Shown here piece by piece: positions 7,726 to 27,616 of a stretch of DNA of 30,068 nucleotides. Source of the stretch: a virus; IMG/VR virus record IMGVR_UViG_3300032047_000083, positions 1-30,068 of that record; one strand, given 5' to 3'. The position numbers were made by a program, and so were the translations under genes. How positions within the stretch are numbered: position 1 is the first letter of the stretch; every line of letters begins with the position of its first letter. The notes under the pieces were generated by a model. That model was given only the letters and a program-made list of their open reading frames with translations. It did no database searches and was not told the origin of the DNA.

Positions 7726-7754
7726 ATTGAAGTTCTCCTACAAACTATACTTAT

Positions 7755-7783
7755 ATTATACTAAAAAAACTGGGTGTGGTCAA
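7755..7783 (-). promoter_or_regulatory. Early sigma70-type promoter, class I
   Basis: TTGACC at 7783-7778 and TATAAT at 7760-7755 have a 17-nt spacer ending TTTTTTTAG. It drives the gene starting at 7725 and probably the coupled genes down to 5083. Confidence 0.85.
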
Positions 7784-7797
7784 CCTATTATTTTGGG

Positions 7798-7830
7798 AAA
7801 AAAGGTGGGGGGACCTGTTTAGATCCCCCC
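7798..7830 (-). terminator. Intrinsic terminator after the MoxR-type gene
   Basis: On the minus strand GGGGGGA (7830-7824) pairs with TCCCCCC (7813-7807) around a 10-nt loop, followed by ACC and a T6 tract (7803-7798). It separates the AAA+ gene from the promoter of the next unit. Confidence 0.85.
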
Positions 7831-7835
7831 TTAGT

Positions 7836-7878
7836 CTGTGCCGCTTAGTGTAGGTTGTAGGAGTAACTGGCGACACAG
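7836..7878 (-). other. Second 3'-UTR hairpin
   Basis: CTGTGTCGC (7878-7870) can pair with GCGGCACAG (7844-7836) over 9 bp with one G-U pair, enclosing a 25-nt loop. It sits between the stop of the AAA+ gene and the intrinsic terminator. Its role is unknown; 3'-end stabilisation is one option. Confidence 0.45.
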
Positions 7879-7885
7879 GAACTAA

Positions 7886-8968: not shown

Positions 8969-9003
8969 ATAATTACTCCTACGAAATTATTTAATATGTA
9001 TAT

Positions 9004-9032
9004 ATTATACTAAAATACAGGTTCAAGGTCAA
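9004..9032 (-). promoter_or_regulatory. Early sigma70-type promoter, class I, for the MoxR-type gene
   Basis: TTGACC at 9032-9027 and TATAAT at 9009-9004 have a 17-nt spacer ending GTATTTTAG. The promoter overlaps the 3' end of the 65-aa gene upstream. Confidence 0.85.
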
Positions 9033-9207
9033 CCTTTTCTTCAACATTATTTAAATTAAATGTTAATTCAACAATGTAACCTAGTGCCTGTAACTCATCA
9101 AGCCTTACAAAAACGTCGCTATCAGAATAGGTATTAGGATCAGATACCCACGCATGGATACCTGCCCTAGCACTAAATCTATCTAAATAGCGAAGTTTGT
9201 AAATCAT
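9010..9207 (-). CDS. Hypothetical protein, 65 aa
   Basis: This is a short soluble protein that I do not recognise. It starts in a TAATG overlap with the 171-aa gene, so the two are translationally coupled. Its last codons overlap the promoter of the AAA+ gene. Confidence 0.72.
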   Translation of the reverse strand: MIYKLRYLDRFSARAGIHAWVSDPNTYSDSDVFVRLDELQALGYIVELTFNLNNVEEKVDLEPVF

Positions 9208-9722
9208 TATGCTACTTGGACTGCTTCAATTACTTGAGAAGTAATATCTTTAAAACCCATTCCAGCAACAATGTGGAAAGAACCATTTGTAACATCTTCA
9301 ACAATGTCACCAACACTCAGCGAGTGCATGTCACGGTAAGTAACAACTTCGCCATCCTTACGAGTGACTGTCTTCATTTTGAAACCACTTACATGATTAT
9401 CAAAAACAATATCTTCGTTGGCGTCTTCGTCATAGTATCTGCCATTAAGAATAGCAAACACACCTTCCAAATCATCACACAACCACTTGTTACCATCACC
9501 GTCAACAAGACCTGCGTCTTTCTCAACTGAGCAAACATGAGTGAAGTGCTGGAAGTCAGTGTGCTTAAACTTATCAGCATAATCATCACCGCGTCCGTGC
9601 ATCAATCTCATGTATGTTTCGTAGATTGGATACTTTGCTTCTCCACCTGCGTGACCATTACCGTTGGTATTAACATAATCGCTAACTTCACGGCTGATCT
9701 TGATTTGGTAAACTTTGTACAT
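9207..9722 (-). CDS. Hypothetical protein, 171 aa
   Basis: The protein is not recognised. It contains an acidic, aromatic-rich central region (CDDLEGVFAILNGRYYDEDA near 82-101). The C-terminal stretch SVGDIV...FHIVAGMGF looks like a small beta-barrel. There is no signal peptide or membrane segment. GGTAGGAG and an early promoter at 9758-9786 precede the ATG. Confidence 0.8.
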   Translation of the reverse strand: MYKVYQIKISREVSDYVNTNGNGHAGGEAKYPIYETYMRLMHGRGDDYADKFKHTDFQHFTHVCSVEKDAGLVDGDGNKWLCDDLEGVFAILNGRYYDEDANEDIVFDNHVSGFKMKTVTRKDGEVVTYRDMHSLSVGDIVEDVTNGSFHIVAGMGFKDITSQVIEAVQVA

Positions 9723-9757
9723 AAAAACTCCTACCTTTTTATTTAAACTATGTGCAT

Positions 9758-9786
9758 ATTATAGCGAAAAACGGGGTCCTGGTCAA
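9758..9786 (-). promoter_or_regulatory. Early sigma70-type promoter, class I
   Basis: TTGACC at 9786-9781 and TATAAT at 9763-9758 have a 17-nt spacer with CCCCGTTTTTCGC. It lies just before the stop of the oxygenase gene (9790) and drives the genes starting at 9722 and 9207. Confidence 0.83.
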
Positions 9787-9789
9787 CCT

Positions 9790-10371
9790 CTACCAACGAT
9801 TTTGTTGAATTATTTCACCTGCTAAGTTGTTGAATTGATTAGTAAAAGCAGAATATACTGTAATTCTTGTTAAATTTGCTGTATGTGACTCCATATTATG
9901 GAGCAATTGACCCGGAAAAATCACTAAATCGTTGTATTTGTTAGGTATGCTAAACGATTGGTCTTCACCTAACACCAAGGAACCACCAAACCTTTCCTCC
10001 CACTTAGGATTAGCAAACCATAACGCAATGGTGTAAAACTCCCCTTCATCTAGTGTGTATCTATCTTTGTGTGGTTCAAACGTTTGGTTTGATGTAATAG
10101 CATTTATATAAGATTTTTGGTATGATGCTTTTTTACAATTTGGTGATATTTGCTTGATATGTTCGATTACATCATTTGCTGGAAACAAGTTAATGTAGTC
10201 TACTAAATTAAGACTTGATGTAAAATAGTGAGTAGCATCTTCTTTCCTGTTGCCACCAACATTATAAAATGGGGTTGTTAAGTAATACTCTTCCCATTTG
10301 CGTAATACACCTTCTGAAAAAGCATTTGGTATATGTAATACATCAAGGCCGTCTATTGTATGTTTGTTCAT
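9790..10371 (-). CDS. 2OG-Fe(II) oxygenase-like protein, next to DNA methyltransferase
   Basis: This is a predicted non-haem iron dioxygenase using 2-oxoglutarate. The iron triad is H101-x-D103 (EPHKDRY) and H158 (QLLHNM), with R169 (LTRITVY) placed to bind 2-oxoglutarate. The double-stranded beta-helix is the only domain in 193 aa. An upstream in-frame TTG would add three residues. I chose the ATG at 10371 because it forms an ATGA overlap with the stop of the methyltransferase gene. That coupling places the enzyme third in a nuclease-like/methyltransferase/oxygenase operon. The substrate may be DNA, protein or a small molecule. The family call is good; the role is inferred. Confidence 0.82.
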   Translation of the reverse strand: MNKHTIDGLDVLHIPNAFSEGVLRKWEEYYLTTPFYNVGGNRKEDATHYFTSSLNLVDYINLFPANDVIEHIKQISPNCKKASYQKSYINAITSNQTFEPHKDRYTLDEGEFYTIALWFANPKWEERFGGSLVLGEDQSFSIPNKYNDLVIFPGQLLHNMESHTANLTRITVYSAFTNQFNNLAGEIIQQNRW

Positions 10372-11276
10372 GCTGACCAAATATAAATTTTATCTTGCTT
10401 CTTTTTACCTGTTTGCTGTCCTAACTGCTGTTTTAGATCTTCTTCATCATCGCATTCAGGTAATCCAAACGATACAGCATCATCATACATCTTTGGAGAT
10501 ATGTTAAAGCAGATAGTACCGCCTGCTTTGATGTTATCTATACACTTTTGCCATAATGGTATGAAGAACTCTTTGTAAAACTTTTCATCGCTTTCCCAAG
10601 GTTCCATGTGTTCGTATATTTCTAAGTTTACATAAGGCGGGGACGTTAGTACAAAGTCATAGTCTAACTTGCTAAAATCTACATCTAAGGCACTTTGCCA
10701 TATCATTTGTAAATTAGGCTTTTCAAATATAGCAGGTGTTTTGTTGTCTAGCATTTCGATCATACTATCGTATGCTGGTTTCATATTGATATTTGTATCA
10801 ATACCAGTATAGTTAATACCTAATGCCCAAGCACCTAACATTCTGCCACCCCAACCTGCTGTAGGATCTAGTACACTTTCAGCATTATACTTTTGATATA
10901 GATACTTTGCTGTGGTACTTTTAAACATCACAACAGAGCCTAAGTTAATCCTAAAGCATTCGTATACATTTCCTGCGGCAGTTTTGCCGCCTCTGTTACG
11001 TTTTCTTGCGGATTCAATTAGTTTATCCCACTTTTCTTTGCGGTTGTAGATATCATATATAGTATCTCCGCCCTCGCGATGACACTTTATTAAATTCTTA
11101 AATTGAAAATGATACAGGAATGGATTGCCGTAAAAGTTATTCTTATTTTCGCTGGCATCGTAACCAAACAGATTAGCAAGATCTTTATTAAGTTCTTCCT
11201 GTGTGATTATCTTATGATCTTCTATCTGCTCGATAGTTACATCTTCGATATGTTTGTTTACTGGCTTCAGTTCCAT
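10368..11276 (-). CDS. DNA methyltransferase (amino-methyltransferase type)
   Basis: This is a SAM-dependent methyltransferase of 302 aa. The SAM-binding motif I is VLDPTAGWGGRMLGA (135-149) and the catalytic motif IV is TSPPY (211-215), in the order motif I then IV. The (S/D)PPY motif is typical of enzymes that methylate N4 of cytosine or N6 of adenine. The final residues KKKQDKIYIW are basic. It is flanked by a PD-(D/E)XK-like gene 5 nt upstream and a coupled oxygenase gene downstream, so it may be the protective half of a restriction-modification-like unit or part of a modification pathway. The recognition sequence is unknown. Confidence 0.86.
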   Translation of the reverse strand: MELKPVNKHIEDVTIEQIEDHKIITQEELNKDLANLFGYDASENKNNFYGNPFLYHFQFKNLIKCHREGGDTIYDIYNRKEKWDKLIESARKRNRGGKTAAGNVYECFRINLGSVVMFKSTTAKYLYQKYNAESVLDPTAGWGGRMLGAWALGINYTGIDTNINMKPAYDSMIEMLDNKTPAIFEKPNLQMIWQSALDVDFSKLDYDFVLTSPPYVNLEIYEHMEPWESDEKFYKEFFIPLWQKCIDNIKAGGTICFNISPKMYDDAVSFGLPECDDEEDLKQQLGQQTGKKKQDKIYIWSA

Positions 11277-11281
11277 TAAGA

Positions 11282-12127
11282 CTACGCATTACCTGTGAAT
11301 ACTGTAAAGCAAGGTGTAGCACCGCCCTGACAAATGTTTTTCCATGTAGTAGAGAAACGTAAAACTACTTTACCATGTTGGTTAAGCAATTTAATACTTT
11401 GTCCTGAGTTTACTACTTCAGTCACTACACTATCCATTTCTGAAAAATCCTTAAACTCAACTGTTTGCTTTTTTGATTCGTAAAATTTAACTATACAATA
11501 CATTAACTCTGAATCTGAACTAAAATCAGAAGTTGTATTGTCACCTGACAAGATATCTTGTACTAAAATATTTAGTTTTTCTAAATGGTTGTTAAGTTCA
11601 GTTGCGGCATACTTGGCGTATGCTGACTGTCCTGGTGTAGTAATATCAGCAATTTGTTCTAATACTTGAGGTTCTGTGTTTCTAAACTCACGTAGAACAC
11701 GACCCCAATCAGCACCACTTTGAATACTTCTACCTATTTTGCCTTCAACTAATTGATACCTTTCGTCAAGTAAACCTAGTTGTTTGTCATAGTCTGTATA
11801 GCCAAGAATCTCATTGCTGACTTTCTTGTTAAACAACGCCTGGGAAGGGTTTGCTTTAGTACCACTACCACCTTTATAAGAAACTTTTAGTTCTACAGGA
11901 ACTTCTGTACCATCTGCTAAAAAGACTTTGATATCGCCTTTGTCGTCGTATGCTTCAGCACCAACCCACTTAGCATCGGCAATAGTAGAATTAGGATACT
12001 GTTCAGCAACTTGTACCTTAATAGCATCAGCAATTTGCTGATTATAAATGCTATCAGAAGTACCAAGTATACCCTGAGCGGTATCTTTCTCGGCTTCTTC
12101 TGCCCAATCTCTACAATAATTTCCCAT
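11282..12127 (-). CDS. Possible PD-(D/E)XK nuclease-like protein, 281 aa
   Basis: The family is not recognised as a whole. Residues 58-84 read as a beta-hairpin with D65 (KGDIKVF), then E79-L-K81 (VPVELKVSY). This is the spacing expected of a PD-(D/E)XK endonuclease active site. The rest has no recognised domain. It is the first gene of a unit with a DNA methyltransferase 5 nt downstream, which is why a restriction-enzyme-like role is attractive. GTAGGAG lies before the ATG, under the promoter at 12162-12189. The nuclease call is tentative; the gene itself is firm. Confidence 0.6.
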   Translation of the reverse strand: MGNYCRDWAEEAEKDTAQGILGTSDSIYNQQIADAIKVQVAEQYPNSTIADAKWVGAEAYDDKGDIKVFLADGTEVPVELKVSYKGGSGTKANPSQALFNKKVSNEILGYTDYDKQLGLLDERYQLVEGKIGRSIQSGADWGRVLREFRNTEPQVLEQIADITTPGQSAYAKYAATELNNHLEKLNILVQDILSGDNTTSDFSSDSELMYCIVKFYESKKQTVEFKDFSEMDSVVTEVVNSGQSIKLLNQHGKVVLRFSTTWKNICQGGATPCFTVFTGNA

Positions 12128-17010: not shown

Positions 17011-17898
17011 TTATTTTCCTATTGCGTTACCATATATGTGTACGTGAACTCTACTTGTATAGTAGTATCCTCTACGTATGGCCTCGTCTGCTATACTGGC
17101 CTCTGTCTGTATTAAACCTTCAAAGGTGCCGCCAACTCCCATAATCCATACAGGATAGTTACAACCAGCATCTCTAAACAGTTTAGTGTTCTCTTCTACT
17201 TCACGCCAACTCTCATCAGTACCATTTACAACATACTTCAACTGCCCTGCTGGTGAAACTTCAGCATATCTGCCTATCACGTCAGGCTTGATTGCTCTTT
17301 TATGTTGCTCTCCAGCAGTACTCCATAGTTTAGGAGATAAACTCCAATACCATTCTCTGCCAGTCCAATTAGTGTATTCGCGTTGTATCCACTCCGCAAA
17401 ATCATCTGTAATTGGTTTAGTACCATTTGTTTCTACAGTAACATTCATTGGCTGATTGTCTCTGCGTTTAAACTCTTCTATAACCTCAGTCATACCTGGT
17501 TGTGTAGGTTTAAGCATTGGCTCGCCGCCTGTAAAGACCATGTGTGCGTTTTGTTGTGTAACTGGGTGTACAAACTTACCATGCGGTAGAAGTGCTGTAA
17601 GTTCGTCACAAGCCTCCTCTACAGTTTTATCAGTAATTAAGTGTCTGTACTTCTTACTCCAAGTATATGAACTATCACAACCTTTTTCAAACACAGGTAA
17701 ATCAAATACATTAGTAATGTCTGTGATATCTAACTTCTCATAAGGTAATTCATATGTGCTAGGATCTGTAGGGTCCTTTTGTCCAAAGCCATTACATTGT
17801 AAGTTACATAGGAAGAATCTCATCCACAGACTAGGAATACCTACGTATTGGCCTTCGCCTTGTGCTGAATAAAATGTTTCGCTATACTTTAATGTCAT
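17011..17898 (-). CDS. queE: 7-carboxy-7-deazaguanine synthase QueE (radical SAM)
   Basis: QueE converts 6-carboxytetrahydropterin to 7-carboxy-7-deazaguanine. The N-terminus YSETFYSAQGEGQYVGIPS is typical. The [4Fe-4S] cysteines are C31 and C35 (CNLQC), with the third at C74 (GCDSS) after a long insertion in place of the usual CX3CX2C loop. GGEP (124-127) is the SAM-binding motif. The length is 295 aa. The ATG forms a TAATG overlap with the FolE stop, so the two are co-translated. With FolE, a QueD-like protein and a DpdA-like transglycosylase in the same window, it most likely feeds DNA modification instead of tRNA modification. Confidence 0.92.
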   Translation of the reverse strand: MTLKYSETFYSAQGEGQYVGIPSLWMRFFLCNLQCNGFGQKDPTDPSTYELPYEKLDITDITNVFDLPVFEKGCDSSYTWSKKYRHLITDKTVEEACDELTALLPHGKFVHPVTQQNAHMVFTGGEPMLKPTQPGMTEVIEEFKRRDNQPMNVTVETNGTKPITDDFAEWIQREYTNWTGREWYWSLSPKLWSTAGEQHKRAIKPDVIGRYAEVSPAGQLKYVVNGTDESWREVEENTKLFRDAGCNYPVWIMGVGGTFEGLIQTEASIADEAIRRGYYYTSRVHVHIYGNAIGK

Positions 17899-18587
17899 TA
17901 CTTATCGCACGAATATTGTTGTTGTAGTTTAATGTTATCCATAAACTCTTTCTTTGTACCTGCGTCTTCTTTGAACGCACCTTTAAGAACAGTTGTTTGT
18001 GTTAGTGAACTATGTGCCTTAACACCTCTATTCTCTACGCAACCGTGTGTGGCTTGTACATAAACACCTAAGTGTTCGGCCCCTGTTGCTTTTTGAATCT
18101 CTCTAACAATGTCGTTAGCAAGTTCTTCTTGTAGTGTACCTCTAGCCGCACACCACTGTGCAATTCTAGTGTACTTGCTTAAACCAATTAGTTTGTCTGC
18201 GGCAATAATGCCAATGTATGCCACACCTCTAACTATTTGGTGATGGTGTGAACACATACTAATAAGTTCACTTCTAACAACTAGCATACCTTCGTATCTA
18301 TCGTCGCTGTCGTTAGGGAAAGCAGTTGCGTTAGGTATGTTTTCGTATCTACCAGACATTAGTTCATTAATATACATCTTTGCTAGACGCCTACCAGTAT
18401 CATTACTGTTAGGATCATTTTCAGTATCGATAACTAATCCTTTTAGCACATCTTCAAACTTTACAGCAAGTTCATCTATTAATTGATCTTTTTCGCCTTC
18501 TTCAATAAATTCAGATATGTTGTCGCCGGCCCAATGTCTTTTGCCTGCTTCTACTAATCTTTGTTTAATCTTTTTACTTGTATCCAT
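17898..18587 (-). CDS. folE: GTP cyclohydrolase I
   Basis: This enzyme opens GTP to give dihydroneopterin triphosphate, the first step to pterins and 7-deazaguanines. The zinc ligands are visible as C112 and H115 (MCSHHH) and C183 (HGCVENRG), matching the Cys-His-Cys set of the family. RIAQWCAARGTLQE near 141-154 is the conserved core. At 229 aa it is full length. It is coupled to QueE by the TAATG overlap. GGAG lies before the ATG. Folate supply is the alternative role, but the QueE neighbour favours deazaguanine synthesis. Confidence 0.94.
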   Translation of the reverse strand: MDTSKKIKQRLVEAGKRHWAGDNISEFIEEGEKDQLIDELAVKFEDVLKGLVIDTENDPNSNDTGRRLAKMYINELMSGRYENIPNATAFPNDSDDRYEGMLVVRSELISMCSHHHQIVRGVAYIGIIAADKLIGLSKYTRIAQWCAARGTLQEELANDIVREIQKATGAEHLGVYVQATHGCVENRGVKAHSSLTQTTVLKGAFKEDAGTKKEFMDNIKLQQQYSCDK

Positions 18588-18604
18588 TTATGTTTTACTC
18601 CGAG

Positions 18605-18805
18605 TTATTTTGTTAAGGACGAGGATGTCCTTTTAATGTATTGGTTATCTTTTTTCAAGATACCATTTTCCCAATTCTCCACTACATCGTTAGCATAGTG
18701 GATTGACTTACTTCGCACATCAATTGTACCAAACAAGTTACCATTCTCCATCAGTTGTACCATGTAGCCTGTGCCATCATGGTTAGTTATTTCTGCTGTT
18801 CTCAT
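18605..18805 (-). CDS. Hypothetical protein, 66 aa
   Basis: This is a small unrecognised protein with a beta-rich N-terminal half (AEITNHDGTGYMVQLMENG) and a basic end. An earlier ATG at 18814 has its Shine-Dalgarno sequence too close. I chose the ATG at 18805, which forms an ATGA overlap with the phosphoribosyltransferase stop and has GAGGA 9 nt upstream. Confidence 0.7.
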   Translation of the reverse strand: MRTAEITNHDGTGYMVQLMENGNLFGTIDVRSKSIHYANDVVENWENGILKKDNQYIKRTSSSLTK

Positions 18806-19290
18806 CTCCACCATTCCTCATAAGGAAAAACAATCCAACGTTCTTGATCAGGTAGTACATTGTTAGCAGTAAATTCAACTTTACCAAAACTGCTAGACTC
18901 CTTATCAAACAATGTAGCATATCTAATATCTTGATGAGCATACGCCATCCTATTAGTTGTGCTATCTACATAGTCTGTGATTACCTTATCGATACCGTGT
19001 AATGTTGTTCCGGAATCATTAATATCGTCAACAACTAAAACTGTTTTATCATTGTATTTAGATAAAATGTGCTTTAGAGTCTCCGAATCTTCGATATGTG
19101 CGTCTCTTGTTTGCCATCTAAATGCTTCAAATGGTACTTCATAGTAATGACTCATCATTACACCAAAAGCATACGCACCACGTCCAGGACCGATTATAAC
19201 TTCAGGCTTGTAACTTTCGTGTGCCATTTCTCGCACAATGATTCTACAATCTCTGTTTAAGTCGTCCCAACTGTAATATAGTTTCTCCAT
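18802..19290 (-). CDS. Phosphoribosyltransferase (purine PRTase-like), apparently leaderless
   Basis: This type I phosphoribosyltransferase of 162 aa has the PRPP-binding signature VLVVDDINDSGTTL (84-97) and an upstream GPGRG loop (34-38). It is most like xanthine/guanine or hypoxanthine PRTases, which join a purine base to PRPP. The start is ATG at 19290. The -10 box ends at 19297, which puts the transcription start on the A of that ATG, and no Shine-Dalgarno sequence can exist. It is the first gene of the unit leading to FolE and QueE. Base salvage, or handling of a deazapurine base, are both possible. Confidence 0.84.
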   Translation of the reverse strand: MEKLYYSWDDLNRDCRIIVREMAHESYKPEVIIGPGRGAYAFGVMMSHYYEVPFEAFRWQTRDAHIEDSETLKHILSKYNDKTVLVVDDINDSGTTLHGIDKVITDYVDSTTNRMAYAHQDIRYATLFDKESSSFGKVEFTANNVLPDQERWIVFPYEEWWR

Positions 19291-19325
19291 TTTTATATTA
19301 TACCATATTTTGTGGCCAATGTCAA
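19276..19325 (-). repeat. Promoter-plus-gene-start module, copy 1
   Basis: From -35 to -10 this copy matches the one at 24650-24700 at 28 of 29 positions. After a short variable gap the match resumes at 14 of 15 positions over the first five codons of the phosphoribosyltransferase gene (ATGGAGAAACTATAT). Confidence 0.85.
19297..19325 (-). promoter_or_regulatory. Early sigma70-type promoter, class II
   Basis: TTGACA at 19325-19320 and TATAAT at 19302-19297 have a 17-nt spacer, TTGGCCACAAAATATGG. Both boxes are perfect consensus. The predicted start is 19290, the first base of the phosphoribosyltransferase gene. The promoter overlaps the last codons of the 180-aa gene. Confidence 0.88.
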
Positions 19326-19864
19326 TCGGAATCTAATAATATTATCTCATTATTTTCAAAATGATCTAAATCTAATAGATTCATATTATCACTGACGTTA
19401 CGTTTAGTCATTTCTAAAAACATCTCTATTTCATTTGCGAATGCTTTATCAAGTATAGGGTTAAGTGATTCTGTTTCATCAATCCTACCTGTAATTAATT
19501 CACACGCATTTCTTAAAGATATTGTCAAACCTTCTAATAACATGTCATCAAAGTTTTTCAATCTTTTATTCATGTATATAGATCTGTTTAACATACGCAT
19601 ATAACATTCTGCTGAAATTTCTTGTATTTTAAGTTCAATACAGCATTCAGAAAAATTTAAATTCTTAAATGTCATTATGTGGAAAGGATCAAAATCTGTG
19701 TACTTACAAAAAAACTGTATACAATCAACAATATCGTCATCGTTTACAGGATATATTTTTTTAATCTCTTGTAAATCGTAACCTGCTCCAATTTGCTTAC
19801 ACACTCCCATCATAGGAACAGCATGCCTATCAGTTACATATATACCGCGTCTCTTTTGTATCAT
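19322..19864 (-). CDS. Hypothetical protein, 180 aa
   Basis: The protein is not recognised. It is acidic and cysteine-containing, probably all-helical. The first 50 residues (DRHAVPMMGVCKQIGAGYDLQEIKKIYPV) could form a helix-turn-helix, which is weak evidence. It starts in an ATGA overlap with GalE and ends over the -35 box of the next promoter. Confidence 0.75.
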   Translation of the reverse strand: MIQKRRGIYVTDRHAVPMMGVCKQIGAGYDLQEIKKIYPVNDDDIVDCIQFFCKYTDFDPFHIMTFKNLNFSECCIELKIQEISAECYMRMLNRSIYMNKRLKNFDDMLLEGLTISLRNACELITGRIDETESLNPILDKAFANEIEMFLEMTKRNVSDNMNLLDLDHFENNEIILLDSD

Positions 19865-20850
19865 TTATTTTTAATTGCCTTAGATTTGTTTTCTAACCAA
19901 AGTTGTGAATGCTCAAACATTTGATCTAAATTATAATTTGGTTGCCAATTCAACAACTCTTTTGCCTTATTAGTATCGGCACAAAGATATGATGGGTCGC
20001 CTGCTCTTCTTGGACCAACCTCATAATTAACCTTTTTACCTGTAACATTTTCAACTGAGGAGATCAAGTCGAAAATACTAAAACCTACGCCGGAACCTAA
20101 ATTAAAGATACCGCTTTCGCCACCATTATTAAGATAATCTACTGCTTTTAATTTAGCATCAGCAATATCTTGTATATGGCAATAGTCTCTAATACATGTA
20201 CCATCTTTGGTATCATAGTCGTCACCACAAATAGTAAACTTAGTACCATTCATAGCACAATCTATAAGGATTGGCATAACATGACTAGCCGGTTCTTGCG
20301 TATAACCATTTTGTGCTTCAGGGTCGGCACCTGCGGCATTGAAATATCTAGTACTAATATAATTAAGACCATATGCCTTATGGTAATCCTCCAGCATTAG
20401 TTCAGTCATATACTTACTTGTTGCGTAAGGACTCATTGGATTTGGTGTTAAATCCTCTGTGAACGGTTCTTGTGTATCTCGTTCTCCATATACACTACTA
20501 GACCCACTAAAAATAAAGTTCTTTACATTGTGCTGTACGCACATATCTAGTAATGCCTGTGTTCCAGATACATTATTTTTGTAATACTTGCCTGGGTTTT
20601 CTAAACTGTCTGGCACAACATGGCTTGCCGCTAAGTGTACAACTGTATTAGGTTTAAACATTTCGATTATACCAGCAGTTGATTGTGTAGCGAAGTCATG
20701 TGGGAACATAGTATAATCTTTGGCCGCCCATTTTCGTGAACCGTTGTCAATTACTATAACATCATACCCTGCTTGGGAAAATGTTTTAGATACTTGAGCA
20801 CCGATGAAACCGGAACCACCTGTGATAACTACTGTTTCTTTATCACTCAT
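19861..20850 (-). CDS. galE: UDP-glucose 4-epimerase-like protein
   Basis: This is an NAD-dependent epimerase of the extended SDR family that interconverts UDP-glucose and UDP-galactose or similar sugars. It has the Rossmann motif TGGSGFIG (10-17), a catalytic serine region FSGSSSVYG (114-122), YATSK (Y142, K146) and RYFNAAGAD, all as in GalE. At 329 aa it is full length. A GT-B-type glycosyltransferase lies in the same gene cluster (23404-24651). Together they could build a sugar for DNA or the cell surface. Substrate specificity cannot be read from sequence. Confidence 0.9.
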   Translation of the reverse strand: MSDKETVVITGGSGFIGAQVSKTFSQAGYDVIVIDNGSRKWAAKDYTMFPHDFATQSTAGIIEMFKPNTVVHLAASHVVPDSLENPGKYYKNNVSGTQALLDMCVQHNVKNFIFSGSSSVYGERDTQEPFTEDLTPNPMSPYATSKYMTELMLEDYHKAYGLNYISTRYFNAAGADPEAQNGYTQEPASHVMPILIDCAMNGTKFTICGDDYDTKDGTCIRDYCHIQDIADAKLKAVDYLNNGGESGIFNLGSGVGFSIFDLISSVENVTGKKVNYEVGPRRAGDPSYLCADTNKAKELLNWQPNYNLDQMFEHSQLWLENKSKAIKNK

Positions 20851-21010
20851 CTTCTTCTCCTTCTTGTTCGTCTGTAAACAAGCCTCCTCTATCTTCTATC
20901 TCGTCGATAGTGTCGCTTAGTCCTTGAGCAGGTTGCGACTTAGTCGGCTGTATTACAGTCTCTGTGTCTCCTTTCTTTTGTGTAAAAGGAATACGTTTAA
21001 TATTAGGCAC
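20843..21010 (-). CDS. Small acidic hypothetical protein, 55 aa, GTG start
   Basis: This ORF has a basic start (PNIKRIPFTQKKG) and a strongly acidic end (TDEQEGEEDE). GTG at 21010 overlaps the stop of the histone-like gene, and its stop overlaps the GalE ATG by 8 nt. The interval has no other ORF and GalE's GGAG lies within it. The ribosome binding site is weak, so the call is moderate. The function is unknown. Confidence 0.55.
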   Translation of the reverse strand: MPNIKRIPFTQKKGDTETVIQPTKSQPAQGLSDTIDEIEDRGGLFTDEQEGEEDE

Positions 21011-21185
21011 TATTTTTTGCTTCTTGAATTTCGTTTCTTCTAGTTTTACAAAGTTTAGAAATTTCCATTAATGCCTTTCTTGCTCTTGTGGCACTTGCTT
21101 TGATACCTGCGCCTTCTTTGAACTTTTCGTTCTCGCTTACATATTCTTCGAATAGTGCTTTTAATTTAATATGTGACTCTGTCAT
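21003..21185 (-). CDS. Histone H1-like (Hc1-type) protein, 60 aa
   Basis: This is a short helical protein with pattern LKALFEEYVSENEKF near the start and KASATRARKALMEISKLCK (29-47). It matches the layout of the bacterial Hc1/histone H1-like family, in which a first helix is followed by a basic (A/S)-T-R-x-R-K-A helix. Those proteins bind DNA. In a phage it could coat modified DNA or disturb the host nucleoid. TAGGAG precedes the ATG. The family assignment is from pattern memory. Confidence 0.65.
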   Translation of the reverse strand: MTESHIKLKALFEEYVSENEKFKEGAGIKASATRARKALMEISKLCKTRRNEIQEAKNSA

Positions 21186-21194
21186 AATTTTCTC

Positions 21195-21632
21195 CTATTT
21201 TAAACTGTCAAATACATCTACGATGTCACTTTCTTCAACATCGAAGTTTGGACCATCCAACTCTTCTACTGGATACTCCATTTCGCAACCGTTTTCATTG
21301 TCTTCGGCTACTGAAATCTTTATGTAGCGACCAGGATACTTTGCTTGTATCTCACTCGCTAAATCATCAGCGATCATCTCGCATGATTTGTTATTAAGTT
21401 GGATTACATCTTCTTTATATAAGTTCTCCAACCATCTCTTAAATTGTATAAATTCTATATCCCTATCATCATGGAATACTTCTATCCACACTTTAAAGTG
21501 GAATATGTGTCTGTGTTTATATCCTAGGAAACTTACATCATACTCATCGCCTGTTGCTGTAGCAGGATTAGTATCTGCTCCAGGATAAAAATGTATGCCC
21601 TCTTTACTGAATGTTACCCATATACTTCTCAT
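21195..21632 (-). CDS. queD: QueD-like (6-carboxytetrahydropterin synthase-like) protein
   Basis: This is a probable T-fold pterin enzyme of 145 aa. It has a histidine cluster (H40, H42, H45 in YKHRHIFHF), a strand/helix pair DIEFIQFKRWL like the (V/I)DF..LK segment of QueD, SCEMIADDLA (83-91) like the catalytic T-x-E-N-(I/L)-A region, and a late ISVAED (E110) like the pterin-binding VxET. It is divergent, but FolE, QueE and a DpdA-like protein in the same window support the role. An ATG at 21641 exists, but its Shine-Dalgarno sequence is only 1 nt away. The ATG at 21632 forms a TAATG overlap with the upstream mini-gene and is preferred. Confidence 0.62.
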   Translation of the reverse strand: MRSIWVTFSKEGIHFYPGADTNPATATGDEYDVSFLGYKHRHIFHFKVWIEVFHDDRDIEFIQFKRWLENLYKEDVIQLNNKSCEMIADDLASEIQAKYPGRYIKISVAEDNENGCEMEYPVEELDGPNFDVEESDIVDVFDSLK

Positions 21633-21742
21633 TATAACCATTCTCCTATTTTAATAAATGCTATAGGTATTAATACTACAGCAAGTATAGTTAAACTAAT
21701 AAAAGTTGCTAATTCACTTGGATCGTTATTAAATGCTCCCAT
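21632..21742 (-). CDS. Small membrane protein, 36 aa
   Basis: This mini-gene encodes one membrane-spanning segment (FISLTILAVVLIPIAFI, residues 13-29). It has the best ribosome binding site in its area, AAGGAGG 4 nt before the ATG, and TAATG overlaps at both ends, so it is tightly coupled to its neighbours. The function is unknown. Confidence 0.75.
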   Translation of the reverse strand: MGAFNNDPSELATFISLTILAVVLIPIAFIKIGEWL

Positions 21743-22152
21743 TATGCCTCCTTGCTTGGATCCCACATAACTAGGTTTTTCTTTTTCAACCTATTAGTTA
21801 CAATAGTCCATCTATTTTGTTCTTCTTTCCATTCCTTTAACCATTTGTGTCCATCTCTTTCTGCGTCAACAAAAATAGCATTAGTAAATGCTAATGGCAC
21901 AATAACAGCACAATGTATAACAATACTTACAACAATGTTATAATTAAAAAAGCCTAAGTATGTAGATGCTACTAGTCCAAAGAATACACTCCATGCTACA
22001 AACAACACTAACATAAAGTAAGTTTGTAAACTTGGATCTGGTATATATTTTAATGGATTGTATCTAACATCCATTACACTTCTCCACCCATTTACAAGTT
22101 TCATTACCGTTCTTCTAAATAGGCTAGGTTTATTAACACTCGGTTCTATCAT
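21742..22152 (-). CDS. Membrane protein, 136 aa
   Basis: This predicted inner-membrane protein has two hydrophobic segments: YFMLVLFVAWSVFFGLVAST (residues 45-64) and a second at about 72-92. Both ends are charged, and the C-terminal third is basic and tryptophan-rich. It resembles a conserved marine-phage membrane protein from memory, with no known function. Its stop overlaps the start of the 36-aa membrane protein. Confidence 0.8.
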   Translation of the reverse strand: MIEPSVNKPSLFRRTVMKLVNGWRSVMDVRYNPLKYIPDPSLQTYFMLVLFVAWSVFFGLVASTYLGFFNYNIVVSIVIHCAVIVPLAFTNAIFVDAERDGHKWLKEWKEEQNRWTIVTNRLKKKNLVMWDPSKEA

Positions 22153-22259
22153 ATTAATCTCCTCTCAATCGGACTCTGATGTACTCCTTTACTACATGCA
22201 TTCCATAAGATAGCCATGTAACTATCAATAGACTCCATATAATAATTTCCAGCACTCAT
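22149..22259 (-). CDS. Small hypothetical protein, 36 aa
   Basis: This mini-gene begins MSAGNYYMESID and ends SPIERRLI. It starts in a TAATG overlap with the gene before it and stops in an ATGA overlap with the 136-aa gene. GAGGA lies 4 nt before the ATG. The double overlap supports real translation. The function is unknown. Confidence 0.65.
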   Translation of the reverse strand: MSAGNYYMESIDSYMAILWNACSKGVHQSPIERRLI

Positions 22260-22435
22260 TAGTCCTCAGTTAGTTTATCTAATTCCTCGATGTTATGTTC
22301 ACCGAGTATTTCTACATTATACTTGCCTTCTGCTGTTCTGTCAACAGTAAAAGACAAATCATATCCTTTACTTTCAAGTACATCTACTTTAGCACAGAAT
22401 TCGTTAAAATCTTTTGTATTAAGTGTTGCTATCAT
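22259..22435 (-). CDS. Hypothetical protein, 58 aa
   Basis: This is a small acidic protein with strand-helix-strand pattern (MIATLNTKDFNEFC, then YDLSFTVDRT). The open frame extends to an ATG at 22477, but that lies deep in the previous gene. AAGGAG sits 4 nt before the ATG at 22435, so I start there. The function is unknown. Confidence 0.66.
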   Translation of the reverse strand: MIATLNTKDFNEFCAKVDVLESKGYDLSFTVDRTAEGKYNVEILGEHNIEELDKLTED

Positions 22436-22586
22436 CATTCTCCTTTTTACGTCTTTCATCTGCCCATCCACTTTCAATATGTAGACCGGCAGGCAATCGA
22501 CCTTTAATATCTGCGAGTTCTTTTAGGATTTTATCCACGCCCTCATCTATTGCCCTTTTAATCTGTGTTTCAGTCGGATGACCCAT
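22419..22586 (-). CDS. Small hypothetical protein, 55 aa
   Basis: This mini-gene encodes a charged helical peptide (IKRAIDEGVDKILKELADIK, residues 9-28). It starts in a TAATG overlap with the outer-membrane protein gene and ends 17 nt inside the following gene. The function is unknown. Confidence 0.7.
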   Translation of the reverse strand: MGHPTETQIKRAIDEGVDKILKELADIKGRLPAGLHIESGWADERRKKENDDSNT

Positions 22587-23248
22587 TACCACTTAACTCC
22601 TAATGTAATACTTAATACATTATTATCGATCGGGTCTTCAGTATATGTATTACTAAAGCCTACTGTAATTGCTTCACTTAAATTATAATTAATTGCTGTT
22701 TCGTTACGCAAATAAGTGTCTGTGCCTGTTTCGTGTAATAACTTGTTTGTTACATTTAAGTTATCATCTAGTTTATAAAATACCCATAAACTGTTTCTTA
22801 ATATTGCTTCGCTTACTTCGTCATTAGAAAGATACGCAACTGATGTTTCGTGGCTTACTTTCCAATTATCATTTCTAAACAGTTTCATACCAAGGCCAGC
22901 ACCACCAACTATTCTATCACCCGAGGCTCTTAATTTATCTGTACCGTAACTAAGTACACCAAAGGTATAATACTTGCCAGTTAGGCCTTTATTAACTTTG
23001 CTAATAATATTAAACTCGTCCATTTTAGTTATGTCGTCTTGCTTCTTAAAAACATAATCGGCTTCTAGTATTAAATCAACATAGTCTAGTTCCCAATTTT
23101 GATCAGCACTAGCATTTAATACAGTTGAATCACTATTAATTTGTGTAAGGCCAAATTTAGCACTTCCTTTTGCTTGTACAGGCATTGTAATCATTACTAG
23201 AACAAAAACTGCTATAATAAATAATACTGCCTTTTTAACTCTACTCAT
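22586..23248 (-). CDS. DUF481-like outer-membrane beta-barrel protein
   Basis: This 220-aa exported protein has a signal peptide (AVLFIIAVFVLVMITMPVQA, cleavage after residue 26). Many alternating strands follow, and the C-terminus SITLGVKW ends in an aromatic residue, as needed for insertion by the BAM complex. The pattern of paired strands with short loops resembles DUF481 proteins such as YdiY. An outer-membrane barrel in a phage genome may mask or replace a receptor. It is framed by small membrane-protein genes in one coupled operon. Confidence 0.75.
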   Translation of the reverse strand: MSRVKKAVLFIIAVFVLVMITMPVQAKGSAKFGLTQINSDSTVLNASADQNWELDYVDLILEADYVFKKQDDITKMDEFNIISKVNKGLTGKYYTFGVLSYGTDKLRASGDRIVGGAGLGMKLFRNDNWKVSHETSVAYLSNDEVSEAILRNSLWVFYKLDDNLNVTNKLLHETGTDTYLRNETAINYNLSEAITVGFSNTYTEDPIDNNVLSITLGVKW

Positions 23249-23411
23249 TGTCTTTCTCTATTGGGTTATCGTAATAATCATGTGTACCTGCTCTGTACCT
23301 TGCTTTCTTTTCTGAAACAAGTACACTACTCATATAGGCGAACCAGGCCGCCGCAATAACAAATACAATGCCTATAAAAAAATTAACAACTGTCATTAAT
23401 GCTTCAAACAT
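23241..23411 (-). CDS. Small membrane protein, 56 aa
   Basis: This protein has one N-terminal membrane segment (VVNFFIGIVFVIAAAWFAY, residues 8-26) and a charged, tyrosine-containing tail. It overlaps the end of the glycosyltransferase gene by 8 nt and the start of the outer-membrane gene by 8 nt, so it is part of the same coupled operon. The ribosome binding site AAAGG is modest. The role is unknown; it could anchor a neighbour. Confidence 0.72.
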   Translation of the reverse strand: MFEALMTVVNFFIGIVFVIAAAWFAYMSSVLVSEKKARYRAGTHDYYDNPIEKDNE

Positions 23412-24651
23412 ACTTTGCCTTTGCTACTTGTCTTCTGTACCATTGTCTGTCTCTTTGTTGCTCAAGACCTAAACCAGCAAGTACCTTTAGTGTTCTTTCG
23501 ATTGTGCCATTTTGATAATCACTTATTTTACCTAGACTGTAATCCTCAAGATTATCAGTTTTAATATCATCTAGCATGTTACCAAGTTTGCTTATACAAT
23601 CCTCCATGCTCCATGGAACGTATAAATGTCTGCCGTTGTTAGCAAATACTTCTGGGAAACTTCTGTAAGCAGGATATAATGTAAGTGTACCAAATGAGTC
23701 TGCTTCACTTACTGTATTGCTTACCCAATCTTGTAAGGCACAATTAAATAATACCTTGCTGTCTGCTAACAAGTTGTAGTAATCATCTTTCTTTAAGCCT
23801 GTGTATATTTTAAAGTTTGCTTTTCTATCGGGCCAACCTGTATTGCTTTCGCCACTTGCTAGTGCCATTGCTCTGTCAACATACTCTTGATCTGAACTTT
23901 TTAACTCTGGGTGTCCACAAAATATAGCAAACTCTAATGTAGGATCTATTTTGTAATAGGCTTCTGCTAAATCCATATAGAAGTGTGGTTGCTTCTCATC
24001 GTCCCAACGTGCCGCAAAGCCAACTCTATGTGCTCTCATGTGTAACGGCTTAGGCTCTGGAATTCTACCTTGTACTTCTTCTTTACCAAACGGTAAACCT
24101 GTTACATATATAGGCTTTTTAAAACCTGCTGTTCTTAAATGTGCTACAAACTCTTCACTAGCAACACAGATACCTGTAACAAATTCGTCTACCATTTGTT
24201 CATATCTACGCATCCAGTCAAACATACCTTCCCTAATTAAGAAGTCATCTGGGTCTGTTGTTTGTGCTAAAAATCTTAAATAGACTTTAGGCCTGTATTC
24301 AGGTGGGGATTGATCCATTATGTAAGGCAAACATTCTAAGCCTGGTGTAAACATATCTTCATAAAAGATTACATCATCGCTTGTAATTTCACCGTTCTTC
24401 ATTTTCTGTACTAAGTTCATTGTTTGACTTAGACTGTAATAACTTCTGCCATGTGCGTCTAACACACTACCTGTAACGATTGCTTTACTGTTATCTAGTT
24501 CATCACCTGTAATGATTTCATAATCAATACCATGCTTTTTAAACTCTCGTTCGTTCCACTCTTGTAACTGTAATGTGTATCTTGCTTCATAAGACTCTAG
24601 CCCCATGTAAAACAATTTACGCATTCCAACATTATACACGCCTTCACTCAT
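23404..24651 (-). CDS. GT-B-type glycosyltransferase
   Basis: This 415-aa protein has the two-domain layout of GT-B enzymes. The C-terminal half reads like a sugar-nucleotide-binding domain: VGFAARWDDEKQP near 230-243, then a glycan-transferase-like VSNTVSEADSFGTLTLYPAY. A short promoter-proximal leader holds GGAG 7 nt before the ATG. With GalE in the same cluster, it may use a UDP-sugar on DNA, teichoic-like or lipopolysaccharide acceptors. Acceptor and sugar are unknown. Confidence 0.78.
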   Translation of the reverse strand: MSEGVYNVGMRKLFYMGLESYEARYTLQLQEWNEREFKKHGIDYEIITGDELDNSKAIVTGSVLDAHGRSYYSLSQTMNLVQKMKNGEITSDDVIFYEDMFTPGLECLPYIMDQSPPEYRPKVYLRFLAQTTDPDDFLIREGMFDWMRRYEQMVDEFVTGICVASEEFVAHLRTAGFKKPIYVTGLPFGKEEVQGRIPEPKPLHMRAHRVGFAARWDDEKQPHFYMDLAEAYYKIDPTLEFAIFCGHPELKSSDQEYVDRAMALASGESNTGWPDRKANFKIYTGLKKDDYYNLLADSKVLFNCALQDWVSNTVSEADSFGTLTLYPAYRSFPEVFANNGRHLYVPWSMEDCISKLGNMLDDIKTDNLEDYSLGKISDYQNGTIERTLKVLAGLGLEQQRDRQWYRRQVAKAKYV

Positions 24652-24700
24652 ATAGATTCTCCATATTGTTAATTATATCATATTTTGTGGCCAATGTCAA
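24650..24700 (-). repeat. Promoter-plus-gene-start module, copy 2
   Basis: This near-identical copy of the phosphoribosyltransferase promoter is followed by ATGGAGAATCTATAT. Here that stretch encodes only MENLYE before a stop overlapping the real start, so it is a vestige of the other gene's MEKLYY start. Its GGAG serves as the ribosome binding site for the glycosyltransferase. Confidence 0.8.
24672..24700 (-). promoter_or_regulatory. Early sigma70-type promoter, class II
   Basis: TTGACA at 24700-24695 and TATAAT at 24677-24672 have a 17-nt spacer, TTGGCCACAAAATATGA. It lies just after the stop of the 168-aa gene and drives the glycosyltransferase and the coupled operon down to about 19322. 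Confidence 0.88.
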
Positions 24701-24702
24701 CC

Positions 24703-25209
24703 TCAATCTATTACCTCGTCTTTAGTATATTTTGACCAATCTGTAAATGTCTTTCTTTTCTGTAAATTATGTAAACTATGACACCAAACACCTGGGTTTG
24801 TTGCTTTAAAGTCTTTATCATCTAGTTTAAGTGTAGCATTGTAATTAAACTGATTAATGTAAGGTAACTTAACACTTATCATTGGTATAAATGTACTATA
24901 CTCAGTCCACCCAGATTCTAATACTCTTTCTGCTAATGTCACATCAAAGTCTAATGTAACCCATATATCTTCATCTAGCATATTCATAATCATATCGTCC
25001 CAACCTGTCCAATCTTTATCGGTTGGTGGGTTAAAACTTTGGTTAGCACCTAAGTAAATATGCGGACAACCACTGTTAAGTGCCCTAGCAAGTATTTCGT
25101 TAGGTGGTTGGTACCCAACTACAAACAAAGTCTTTTGACCATAAGCAGGTGAATGCTCAACCTCTGTACCTATAAAAAACTTTACGTCTTCGTGCCCTTC
25201 TCTTTCCAT
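24703..25209 (-). CDS. Hypothetical protein, 168 aa
   Basis: The function is not recognised. The protein is alpha/beta, with KTLFVVGYQPP (26-36), GANQSFNPP (54-62), VTLDFDV and FIPMISVKLPYINQFNYNATLK further on. From memory this is a conserved protein of marine T4-like phages. It lies directly after the oxygenase gene, in the unit containing the DpdA-like gene and DNA polymerase. Confidence 0.78.
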   Translation of the reverse strand: MEREGHEDVKFFIGTEVEHSPAYGQKTLFVVGYQPPNEILARALNSGCPHIYLGANQSFNPPTDKDWTGWDDMIMNMLDEDIWVTLDFDVTLAERVLESGWTEYSTFIPMISVKLPYINQFNYNATLKLDDKDFKATNPGVWCHSLHNLQKRKTFTDWSKYTKDEVID

Positions 25210-25210
25210 T

Positions 25211-25894
25211 TTAATTTCCTATTCCAAAATCTTTATGTAATTCTTTAGTCAGTTTTTCCATTACAAATGCGTCCTTGTGTAATGCGTTTTTCAATGTAGC
25301 AGGATCAAAATATAAGTTCTTTTCCTTACCTTCTTGCTTTTGAAAACCAATATACACAGATAGCCTTATTTCACTTTTATCAATAACATCTTGTATTTGA
25401 TGAAACAAAGTACCTGGGAATATAACACAACGATTAAACTTATGCTCAATAAGTGTATCCTTATCTTCTCCTAGATAGAAGCCACCGCCTACATCTTTAA
25501 AGTATGGATTCCCAAACCAAAGGAATATTAAAATATCTCTGGAAAGGTGATCAACGTGTCCTCTAAAAGAATCACACTCTTGCGTAAGGTTAATATGTGT
25601 TCTAACACAATCAGTATATTTAAAATCAGTACCATTATTTTCATTCCACTCGTTTACAAGCGGTAGTATAGTAGTTGACATTCTAAATACTTTTTCAAGG
25701 TCTGGTTTAGTCATACCATGTGTAAAGTAAAATAAACTCTCACCTTCTGCTTCTGTCTGTGCGTATTCAACTGCGTTCATTACAAAACCACTATTCATAT
25801 AGTATCTAAGCCAGTCACTACATATTTCTTTGCTGAAAAAGTCATCAGCAATAAGGACTGGCTTATCATCTATAACTAGTGATTCTATATTCAT
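25211..25894 (-). CDS. 2OG-Fe(II) oxygenase-like protein, next to the DpdA-like gene
   Basis: This is a second predicted 2-oxoglutarate/iron dioxygenase in the window. The triad is H113-x-D115 (GHVDHL) and H165 (LFHQIQ), with R177 (EIRLSVYIGF) for 2-oxoglutarate. It is 227 aa and only loosely similar to the copy at 9790, so not a recent duplicate. It starts in a TAATG overlap with the 63-aa gene that follows the DpdA-like gene. It could hydroxylate a side chain on the modified base, a protein or a metabolite; none is proven. Confidence 0.8.
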   Translation of the reverse strand: MNIESLVIDDKPVLIADDFFSKEICSDWLRYYMNSGFVMNAVEYAQTEAEGESLFYFTHGMTKPDLEKVFRMSTTILPLVNEWNENNGTDFKYTDCVRTHINLTQECDSFRGHVDHLSRDILIFLWFGNPYFKDVGGGFYLGEDKDTLIEHKFNRCVIFPGTLFHQIQDVIDKSEIRLSVYIGFQKQEGKEKNLYFDPATLKNALHKDAFVMEKLTKELHKDFGIGN

Positions 25895-26085
25895 TAGTAA
25901 CTAATGTAACCCCATTGAACCAATTGGTTTTGAAAGAAGGTTGCTTTCTTTGTACTAAACTCCATTGGTGCTTGTATCTTGCCATCTTTGGTTTCTATAA
26001 TTGTTACGCCATGATCGTTTACTTCAAAGTTTACATCATGTCCTTCGTGACTATAAGTACCGCTATATACTGTTTTACTCTCCAT
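25894..26085 (-). CDS. Hypothetical protein, 63 aa
   Basis: This is a small beta-rich protein (VYSGTYSHEGHDVNFEVNDHG in the first third), of unknown function. The codon before the ATG at 26085 is TTG and could extend it by one residue. The start lies 11 nt inside the end of the DpdA-like gene, and its stop overlaps the oxygenase start. Confidence 0.72.
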   Translation of the reverse strand: MESKTVYSGTYSHEGHDVNFEVNDHGVTIIETKDGKIQAPMEFSTKKATFFQNQLVQWGYISY

Positions 26086-27616
26086 CAAAATCTGCCCTCA
26101 TTATATCCTCTTGCATGTCCGCTTCACTATCACCTGATTCGTATTCATCAGTTTCAAATAAAGCACCAAATGTAGATTGTTCCGCACTACCATCTGAGAA
26201 ACTAATCTCTTTTAAAAACTCTTTGTTATCTTCTAACATCTGCCTTGCGTCAGTGTTATTAGGATCTAACACTTCCTCAGCAAAACTTTCGAACATTAAA
26301 ATAGTACCTGGAACATAAGGTGAAGTTTCATTACTTACACTACTACCTTTTACTTTCTTCCAGTTCTTCCAATGTGTTGGAGTTCTGTGTTTTTCCATAT
26401 CAGCAAGTCTATTTGCTTCTTGGACTGCTGTGATATGATTATAAACACTATGACCCATGTAAAGAGCATAACTTAGTGTGTCCCAACTAGTTGTAGTTTC
26501 TTTACCATTTCTATTAACATCACCGTGTCCTAATACACAGATGTCACCAACAGTTAGTCTGTCCATTATAGGGGAATGTGCAAAAGGCATAGGCATCTTT
26601 GATCCTTTCATGTCTTTATTATCGAATGCTCTATCCATAAAGTATCCGAATCGCTTGGCTCTAAACTCATTATGTGTGTAGGTTTGGCCGTATGCTGTAT
26701 TGACAAAAGGCGATGCCGCATCAAACGATAATGTAATATTAGGATTGTCATGTTTTCTCAACTGTCTTTGGATACTGGTAAGGTGACATGCCCAATTAAG
26801 GCGTCCAGTACCTAAGAAGTGAATCCAATCCTTGCCTTCTAGTAAACCATCTTCTCTAAGATCTAATAGTCTACTCAAGACACTATACATGTGTTTCATG
26901 TTGATACCAGCGAATGCGTAACCTTCTAAGGTTCTATTAGCATCACCATATGCTTCTTGCACAAAACTTGTATTGGAAAAATGCTTTACAGCATCATACC
27001 ATTCTTTGCTATTTTCTTCATTACTGCCACTTAACACATTTAGGAACTTTGTGGCACCGGGTGTTCTATTCCTCATAAAATAGTCTAAATTAAGTAGACT
27101 AATATCTAGTGTGTCTTGAAATTCTGTAAGTCCTGTTCTTTCACTTAGTTTACCAACTGCCGCAAAAGCCGGAACATCTAATGTCATACTCCAGTCTGCT
27201 GTATGCTCTAACCATGTTAGTATCTTGTTACAAAACTGTGTTCTAGCAGGGTCATTAGGATCTTTAGCATTACTCCAGTCCATTTTGATAACACCGGTAG
27301 CAAGTTGGAAACCACCTGAGTCTCCTAGTATCATAGTTTTACTACGATCTCTTCCTTGTACCATTGGTTCGCGTTCGTCACTTTTGACTGGGTCTAAGTG
27401 TGCGTGACCACCGGAGTATAATCCCCATGGATAATGATAATAACTATTCTCAGGATCAAGGAAGTTCATACCTTGTGTGCCTTTTTCAAAGCCTTCAGGG
27501 CATCTCCATTCACTTGGATTAGCATCCATTTTTTGTAATTGCGTTACATAGAAGCCACTAATGGCAGGTAGGTATACTGCCCAATCCTGGTGCTTCTTTC
27601 CTAGGTCAACTGTCAT
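26075..27616 (-). CDS. dpdA: DpdA-like 7-deazaguanine DNA transglycosylase
   Basis: This is a predicted TGT-fold enzyme of 513 aa that swaps guanine in DNA for a 7-deazaguanine base. GDSGGFQ (98-104, with D99) corresponds to the active-site DSGGFQ of tRNA-guanine transglycosylases. DWSMTLDVPAF (141-151) follows. SFDAASP (297-303, with D299) matches the position of the FDCVxPTR nucleophile loop. The cysteine zinc site of tRNA enzymes is not obvious, and the acidic C-terminal 80 residues are not part of a TGT core. Both points favour DpdA over a tRNA enzyme. FolE, QueE and a QueD-like gene in the window support this. It lies between the clamp candidate and the small 63-aa gene. Confidence 0.83.
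   Translation of the reverse strand: MTVDLGKKHQDWAVYLPAISGFYVTQLQKMDANPSEWRCPEGFEKGTQGMNFLDPENSYYHYPWGLYSGGHAHLDPVKSDEREPMVQGRDRSKTMILGDSGGFQLATGVIKMDWSNAKDPNDPARTQFCNKILTWLEHTADWSMTLDVPAFAAVGKLSERTGLTEFQDTLDISLLNLDYFMRNRTPGATKFLNVLSGSNEENSKEWYDAVKHFSNTSFVQEAYGDANRTLEGYAFAGINMKHMYSVLSRLLDLREDGLLEGKDWIHFLGTGRLNWACHLTSIQRQLRKHDNPNITLSFDAASPFVNTAYGQTYTHNEFRAKRFGYFMDRAFDNKDMKGSKMPMPFAHSPIMDRLTVGDICVLGHGDVNRNGKETTTSWDTLSYALYMGHSVYNHITAVQEANRLADMEKHRTPTHWKNWKKVKGSSVSNETSPYVPGTILMFESFAEEVLDPNNTDARQMLEDNKEFLKEISFSDGSAEQSTFGALFETDEYESGDSEADMQEDIMRADFDGE

Follow-up and report, generated by a model that had tools for sequence, protein, structure and literature searches.

A conserved phage gene cassette with a DpdA-like transglycosylase and a QueD-fold protein, and its probable role in 7-deazaguanine DNA modification

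The closest described system is the phage DNA modification pathway made up of FolE, QueD, QueE, QueC and DpdA (Hutinet 2019, PMC6884629); the same study pointed to Mycobacterium phage Bipper, which has no QueC, as a possible carrier of the QueC substrate. The window analysed here, that is, the entire 30,068-bp IMG/VR record of a fragment of an uncultured marine phage, likewise has FolE, QueE and a TGT-fold transglycosylase. It differs from the FolE-QueD-QueE-QueC-DpdA system in that neither QueC nor Gat-QueC is present, in that its QueD-fold protein is devoid of the QueD catalytic residues, and in that the cassette carries in addition a glycosyltransferase (GT), an epimerase and a phosphoribosyltransferase (PRT). 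That the locus serves 7-deazaguanine modification of DNA is, in our judgement, highly probable.

Gene content and conservation of the cassette

Analysis of the open reading frames placed the QueE, FolE, QueD-like and DpdA-like genes where an earlier note on this DNA had located them, all on the minus strand. The genes of the window are densely packed and many overlap. The earlier note had described the pathway as distributed; the genes instead form a compact cassette spanning about 10.6 kb, with the following features.

17011..17898, minus strand, QueE-like radical SAM enzyme (7-carboxy-7-deazaguanine synthase); phrog_2076, 4.9e-51
17898..18587, minus strand, FolE, GTP cyclohydrolase I; PF01227, 1.2e-37
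18802..19290, minus strand, phosphoribosyltransferase of the xanthine/guanine type; PF00156, 4.5e-11
19861..20850, minus strand, GalE-type UDP-sugar 4-epimerase; TIGR01179 galE, 340.8 bits
21195..21641, minus strand, 148-aa T-fold protein with predicted QueD/PTPS fold; AF2 model, Foldseek and conservation
23404..24651, minus strand, glycosyltransferase (GT-B/GT4-like); weak matches to PF13524 and PF00534
24703..25209, minus strand, conserved cassette protein of unknown function; recurrence at 148-aa loci
25211..25894, minus strand, 2OG-Fe(II) oxygenase-like protein; phrog_274, 4e-13, and phrog_61, 3e-5
26075..27616, minus strand, predicted TGT-fold, DpdA-like transglycosylase of 513 aa; AF2 model, invariant D99 and D299

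The cassette is flanked by a family B DNA polymerase gene and by a gene for a conserved, clamp-like protein of unknown function that stays adjacent to the polymerase in relatives. Megablast returned no phage matches to the cassette region.

Judged by their sequences, FolE and QueE are plain members of their families, as previously proposed. FolE scored 129.5 bits against PF01227 (curated cut-off 27) and shows the CSHH and HGC motifs. For QueE, the NCBIfam QueE models ranked best, yet scored under their cut-offs. Cys31, Cys35 and Cys74 are invariant among 62 relatives, and the spacing of these cluster cysteines fits neither CX3CX2C nor CX14CX2C, an insertion preceding the third Cys; the 17011 protein was therefore filed as QueE-like. 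The epimerase exceeded the NCBIfam cut-off of 262.3 for TIGR01179, while the best NCBIfam match of the PRT, xanthine PRT, was under its cut-off. The window GT reached 25.2 bits against PF13524 (cut-off 25) and PF00534 was matched by 7 of 10 members of its family, with a best value of 2e-4; by these weak matches it is GT4/GT-B-like. A motif resemblance to the queuosine mannosyltransferases was considered for the GT and no such match was found.

The neighbourhood of the 148-aa gene was compared across 141 distinct loci, many of them incomplete, so that all counts are lower bounds. A GT was found at 132 loci (at 92 of these within 500 bp of the 148-aa gene), a TGT at 118, FolE at 115, PRT at 97, GalE at 96 and QueE at 93. 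The family of the 24703 protein, for which no PDB sequence match was found, occurs at 108 of the 141 loci, its median distance to the 148-aa gene being 305 bp. The 2OG-Fe(II) oxygenase-like gene, whose product matched PF13640 under the cut-off, was present at 7 loci only and is an optional member. In a 250-kb relative the genes for the GT, the 24703 family, the 148-aa protein, TGT, FolE and QueE are each single copy and all lie within about 9 kb, the same stretch that also holds the best copies of PRT and GalE. The reading frames of GT, 148-aa protein and TGT overlap in Magnetospirillum.

The recurrence of this gene set across the 141 loci is well beyond chance, and the FolE, QueE, 148-aa and TGT genes form one widely conserved cassette; the gene identities and the conservation of the cassette were observed directly. 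It is common in marine phages and is also integrated in Magnetospirillum chromosomes.

The DpdA-like transglycosylase

No Pfam, NCBIfam or PDB sequence match was obtained for the 26075 protein, and a PDB search with the protein and its profile gave nothing useful. An AF2 model built from 44 relatives (pLDDT 89) was assigned the TGT (beta/alpha)8 fold: the top Foldseek matches were tRNA-guanine transglycosylases, and in a second structural comparison the best 50 rows were all TGTs with Z from 17.5 to 18.4, the last value being that against 2ash. D99 (DSGGFQ) and D299 (FDxxSP), which we take to be the general acid/base and the nucleophile Asp of TGTs, are invariant in the 44 relatives. The alignment of the same relatives contains no invariant Cys, so the CxCxxC...H zinc site of tRNA TGTs is missing and the protein was not filed as a tRNA-type TGT. 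Close relatives (49 percent identity) are found in Pseudomonas jumbo phages.

On the strength of the model, the 26075 protein is a TGT-fold transglycosylase, DpdA-like as the earlier note had supposed, with both catalytic aspartates retained; a missing TGT active site, which the note had named as grounds for refuting its reading, was thus not observed. That it acts on DNA we infer from its phage origin and the cassette context only. FolE and QueE are also used in queuosine synthesis, and for phages without DpdA a role of such genes in tRNA is allowed by Hutinet 2019 (PMC6884629). It is nevertheless very improbable that the present set boosts queuosine in host tRNA rather than modifying DNA: the cassette has a dedicated and strongly divergent TGT, clustered by the DNA polymerase and the clamp-like gene, it has neither QueC nor QueF, and a GT and an epimerase are present.

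The 148-aa QueD-fold protein

The 21195 reading frame encodes 148 aa, or 145 aa if counted from the second Met. It has no PTPS match in Pfam and falls in a PHROG of unknown function, while its profile is collinear with P. horikoshii PTPS at E 0.26. In the AF2 model (pLDDT 85) the best Foldseek match was PTPS/QueD (2.9e-6), with Z values of 12.9 against 2dj6 and 12.4 against 4ntk, the E. coli QueD; a single-sequence PDB match to 2hfq was weak and was discarded. By these models the protein has the QueD/PTPS T-fold. Alignment of 15 diverse family members revealed that the zinc ligands H17, H43 and H45 are invariant, and the anchor residues E88 and E113 are conserved in the family.

The catalytic residues of QueD are lost, and this loss, like the conserved residues, was directly observed. 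An invariant Leu39 stands before the HxH where QueD has the catalytic Cys, with no conserved acid there, and the Asp-His dyad is missing, the DH segment of 2dj6 being an insertion relative to the family. H57, R60, E63, S86 and C87 are new invariant residues, not shared with QueD. By the known chemistry of QueD, a protein with this sequence should not make CPH4.

The gene content of other genomes was consistent with this. A separate PTPS/QueD above the Pfam cut-off is encoded by nine of ten isolated phages carrying the 148-aa gene, and in an eleventh, Chryseobacterium phage MA9V-3, one was detected by a local profile. An uninterrupted run of GT, 148-aa, TGT and QueD genes, in this order, occurs in four contigs of Magnetospirillum and in a MAG related to them, and in a Streptomyces a distant 148-aa homolog, QueD and FolE stand in a row. 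In the complete 54-kb genome of the Faecalibacterium (gut) phage Roos, the 148-aa homolog is accompanied by a TGT and by a precursor transporter of the Vut_1 (YhhQ) type, and no FolE, QueE or QueD was found. The companion QueDs and phage Roos thus indicate that the 148-aa protein tracks the transglycosylase and the base and not CPH4 synthesis. Most companion PTPS proteins have no zinc His but keep the Cys and the DH, the reverse of the 148-aa protein. A complementary split QueD was considered and rejected, since a canonical QueD accompanies the 148-aa protein in Paride, Bakedbeans and Magnetospirillum, and Roos is without any QueD.

The lost catalytic residues, the coexistence with a separate QueD and the gene set of Roos together indicate that the 148-aa protein is very probably not the QueD. 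The divergent QueD of the earlier note is thereby upheld in its fold and not in its activity. Of the proposed route from GTP to 7-carboxy-7-deazaguanine (CDG) and on into DNA, FolE, QueE and the TGT-fold enzyme stand, while the QueD step is very probably not filled by the 148-aa protein. The contrary reading, in which this protein acts as QueD, CDG is the product of the gene set and the transglycosylase places it in DNA as the final base, can draw on the retained fold and zinc triad, on the missing QueC, and on two large relatives, the 250-kb contig of the nearest clade and a 256-kb contig, in neither of which a QueD of any kind was found. In the nearest clade the 148-aa protein might conceivably carry out the CPH4 step itself; the missing QueD may also be supplied by the host or lie in an unsequenced part. 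Given the missing Cys and Asp-His dyad, the separate QueD in most relatives, Roos without FolE and QueE, and a cassette that includes GT and GalE, we regard that reading as quite improbable.

Another step, at or after the carboxy base, is probably performed by the 148-aa protein. The Streptomyces genome, in which neither QueE nor QueC was found except for one partial, barely-over-cut-off QueC match, does not fit CDG as the substrate. The protein might instead be a partner of the TGT that has no catalytic role or that delivers the base, the inserted base then being CDG or a product of host QueC. Its gene is near a TGT gene at nearly all loci, and in Roos only TGT and transporter go with it; against this, it is paired with several unrelated-looking transglycosylase types (phrog_10773, phrog_20335, phrog_887 and the family of the window), and the conserved zinc ligands and purine-anchor Glu residues suggest catalysis, so a mere partner appears unlikely.

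The inserted base and comparison with known systems

No QueC was detected in the 30,068-bp window, in agreement with the earlier note; absence from a fragment means little taken alone. None was found in Paride, phiST or most of the large relatives. Where relatives have larger or complete genomes, QueC is almost always missing, and no QueC or QueF was found at any retrieved 148-aa locus. Among the retrieved loci a full QueC occurs in host genomes and in Vibrio phage 2.275.O only; this phage encodes a protein distantly related to the transglycosylase, and no 148-aa homolog was detected in it. In Vibrio phage D479 the QueC match is limited to the C-terminal part, and in Xanthomonas phage X1 it is weak and under the cut-off. 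Weak QueC matches in five relative contigs (G003-G007) appear to be NAD synthetase: L135, the one examined in full, resembles that enzyme and was rejected as QueC, and the others were judged from it.

The missing QueC is what favours the carboxy base as final product, as the earlier note had suggested. Against this, a GT is nearly always and an epimerase often in the cassette. The presence of GT and GalE, together with a role of the 148-aa protein at or after CDG, implies that CDG is probably not the end product.

The explanation that we favour, and hold to be somewhat on the probable side, is a cassette that would replace some guanines of the phage DNA with a 7-deazaguanine. GTP would be the starting point and FolE would act first, CPH4 would come from a QueD encoded outside the fragment by phage or host, and QueE would convert it to CDG. 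The 148-aa T-fold zinc protein would then act at or after CDG, most likely in processing of the base, for example by removing or activating the carboxylate, and not in the making of CPH4. Further 7-deazaguanine derivatives, including dCDG and dDG, and a predicted decarboxylase, DpdL, were reportedly described by Cui in 2023; decarboxylase activity of the 148-aa protein itself is conceivable, if rather unlikely. The TGT-fold protein would exchange the base into DNA, and the guanine thereby released would probably be salvaged by the phosphoribosyltransferase. Finally the GT, probably fed with its sugar donor by the GalE-type epimerase, would add a sugar to the inserted base.

Glycosylation of the inserted base is plausible and falls a little short of an even chance. 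The target of GT and GalE may be a different one, and no GT was seen near the 148-aa gene in phiST, RHph_I1_18, Ahp1, Bakedbeans, D479, MA9V-3 and Roos; these seven isolated phages indicate that glycosylation is not general. More tentative still is the full proposal of a glycosylated 7-deazaguanine in phage DNA, in which a new zinc enzyme of QueD fold would process a base derived from CDG, the TGT-fold protein would insert it, and the dedicated GT would then transfer a hexose to it from a UDP-sugar. If true, very common marine phages would carry further hypermodified, probably sugar-bearing 7-deazaguanine DNA, the same modification would occur in the cultured Pseudomonas jumbo phages PA5oct and Paride, and a function would be given to a QueD-fold family of at least several hundred members that at present carries no functional label and is readily mistaken for QueD in annotation. 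A literature search found no report of DNA modification in phage Paride.

Comparison with described proteins and phages indicated both shared and distinct features. E. coli QueD 4ntk and P. horikoshii 2dj6 have in common with the 148-aa protein the T-fold, the zinc His triad and the anchor Glu, while the 148-aa family differs from QueD/PTPS in having Leu for Cys, a deleted Asp-His dyad and the new invariant residues H57, R60, E63 and C87. As in T4-type DNA glucosylation, a GT-B-type phage glycosyltransferase probably acts on DNA; unlike in T4, the target in the window would be a 7-deazaguanine and not hydroxymethylcytosine, sugar and target both being predictions. In QueC-less phages such as Bipper the pathway ends before QueC, as in the window, whereas the extra T-fold enzyme and GT of the window suggest further processing. 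Carboxy-7-deazaguanine as an end product is not new, having been considered in 2019; what appears to be new is a conserved cassette in which GT, epimerase and PRT accompany a QueD-fold enzyme that is not QueD.

Gene neighbourhoods and fusions in phages

Homologs of the 148-aa QueD-like protein were located at the following phage loci (L-numbers; coordinates within each locus).

phiST (L002), 8807-9586: ~260-aa protein of phrog_20335 (unknown function), adjoining the 148-aa gene
MA9V-3 (L245), 8788-9582: ~260-aa protein of phrog_20335, adjoining the 148-aa gene
MA9V-3 (L245), 7434-8315: 148-aa domain fused to another N-terminal part
Bakedbeans (L116), 7215-8366: 148-aa domain fused to another N-terminal part
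Faecalibacterium phage Roos (L246), 9276-11872: ParB-like gene, 148-aa homolog, tRNA-guanine-transglycosylase-fold (TGT) gene (phrog_887) and Vut_1 transporter in a single run

Judged by eye from the motifs DNGAGDHD and HFLGAG, the phrog_20335 proteins of phiST and MA9V-3 look like TGT-type enzymes. The Roos gene run is a salvage-only form of the proposed modification system.

Bacterial loci

Magnetospirillum (L254), 6817-10914: glycosyltransferase, 148-aa homolog, TGT, hypothetical protein, QueD and second possible glycosyltransferase
Streptomyces sp. NEAU-Y11 (L259), 7917-9639: 148-aa homolog, QueD and FolE, consecutive

The Magnetospirillum island, also seen at L255-L258, is integrated, carries an integrase and contains overlapping reading frames. 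The Streptomyces run, of which a second copy was found (L260), is followed by one deaminase-like and one flavoprotein-like gene. Searches of the NEAU-Y11 genome revealed no QueE and, for QueC, a single partial match barely above the cut-off; the product of the run is possibly a pterin or a 7-deazapurine.

Oxygenase-like, QueE-like and companion PTPS proteins

The window carries two related 2OG-Fe(II) oxygenase-like genes (9793-10389 and 25211-25894), the latter lying inside the cassette and being rare at other loci. In the QueE-like group of window protein 17011-17898, Cys 31, 35 and 74 are invariant, and an insertion of ~38 residues separates the second from the third.

Most relatives (L002, L113, L118, L103 and L223-L230) harbor a second class of PTPS (6-pyruvoyltetrahydropterin synthase), which lacks the zinc His (FRQ...HC..LHGY) and retains the Cys and the Asp-His dyad, a residue pattern that is the reverse of that observed for the 148-aa family.
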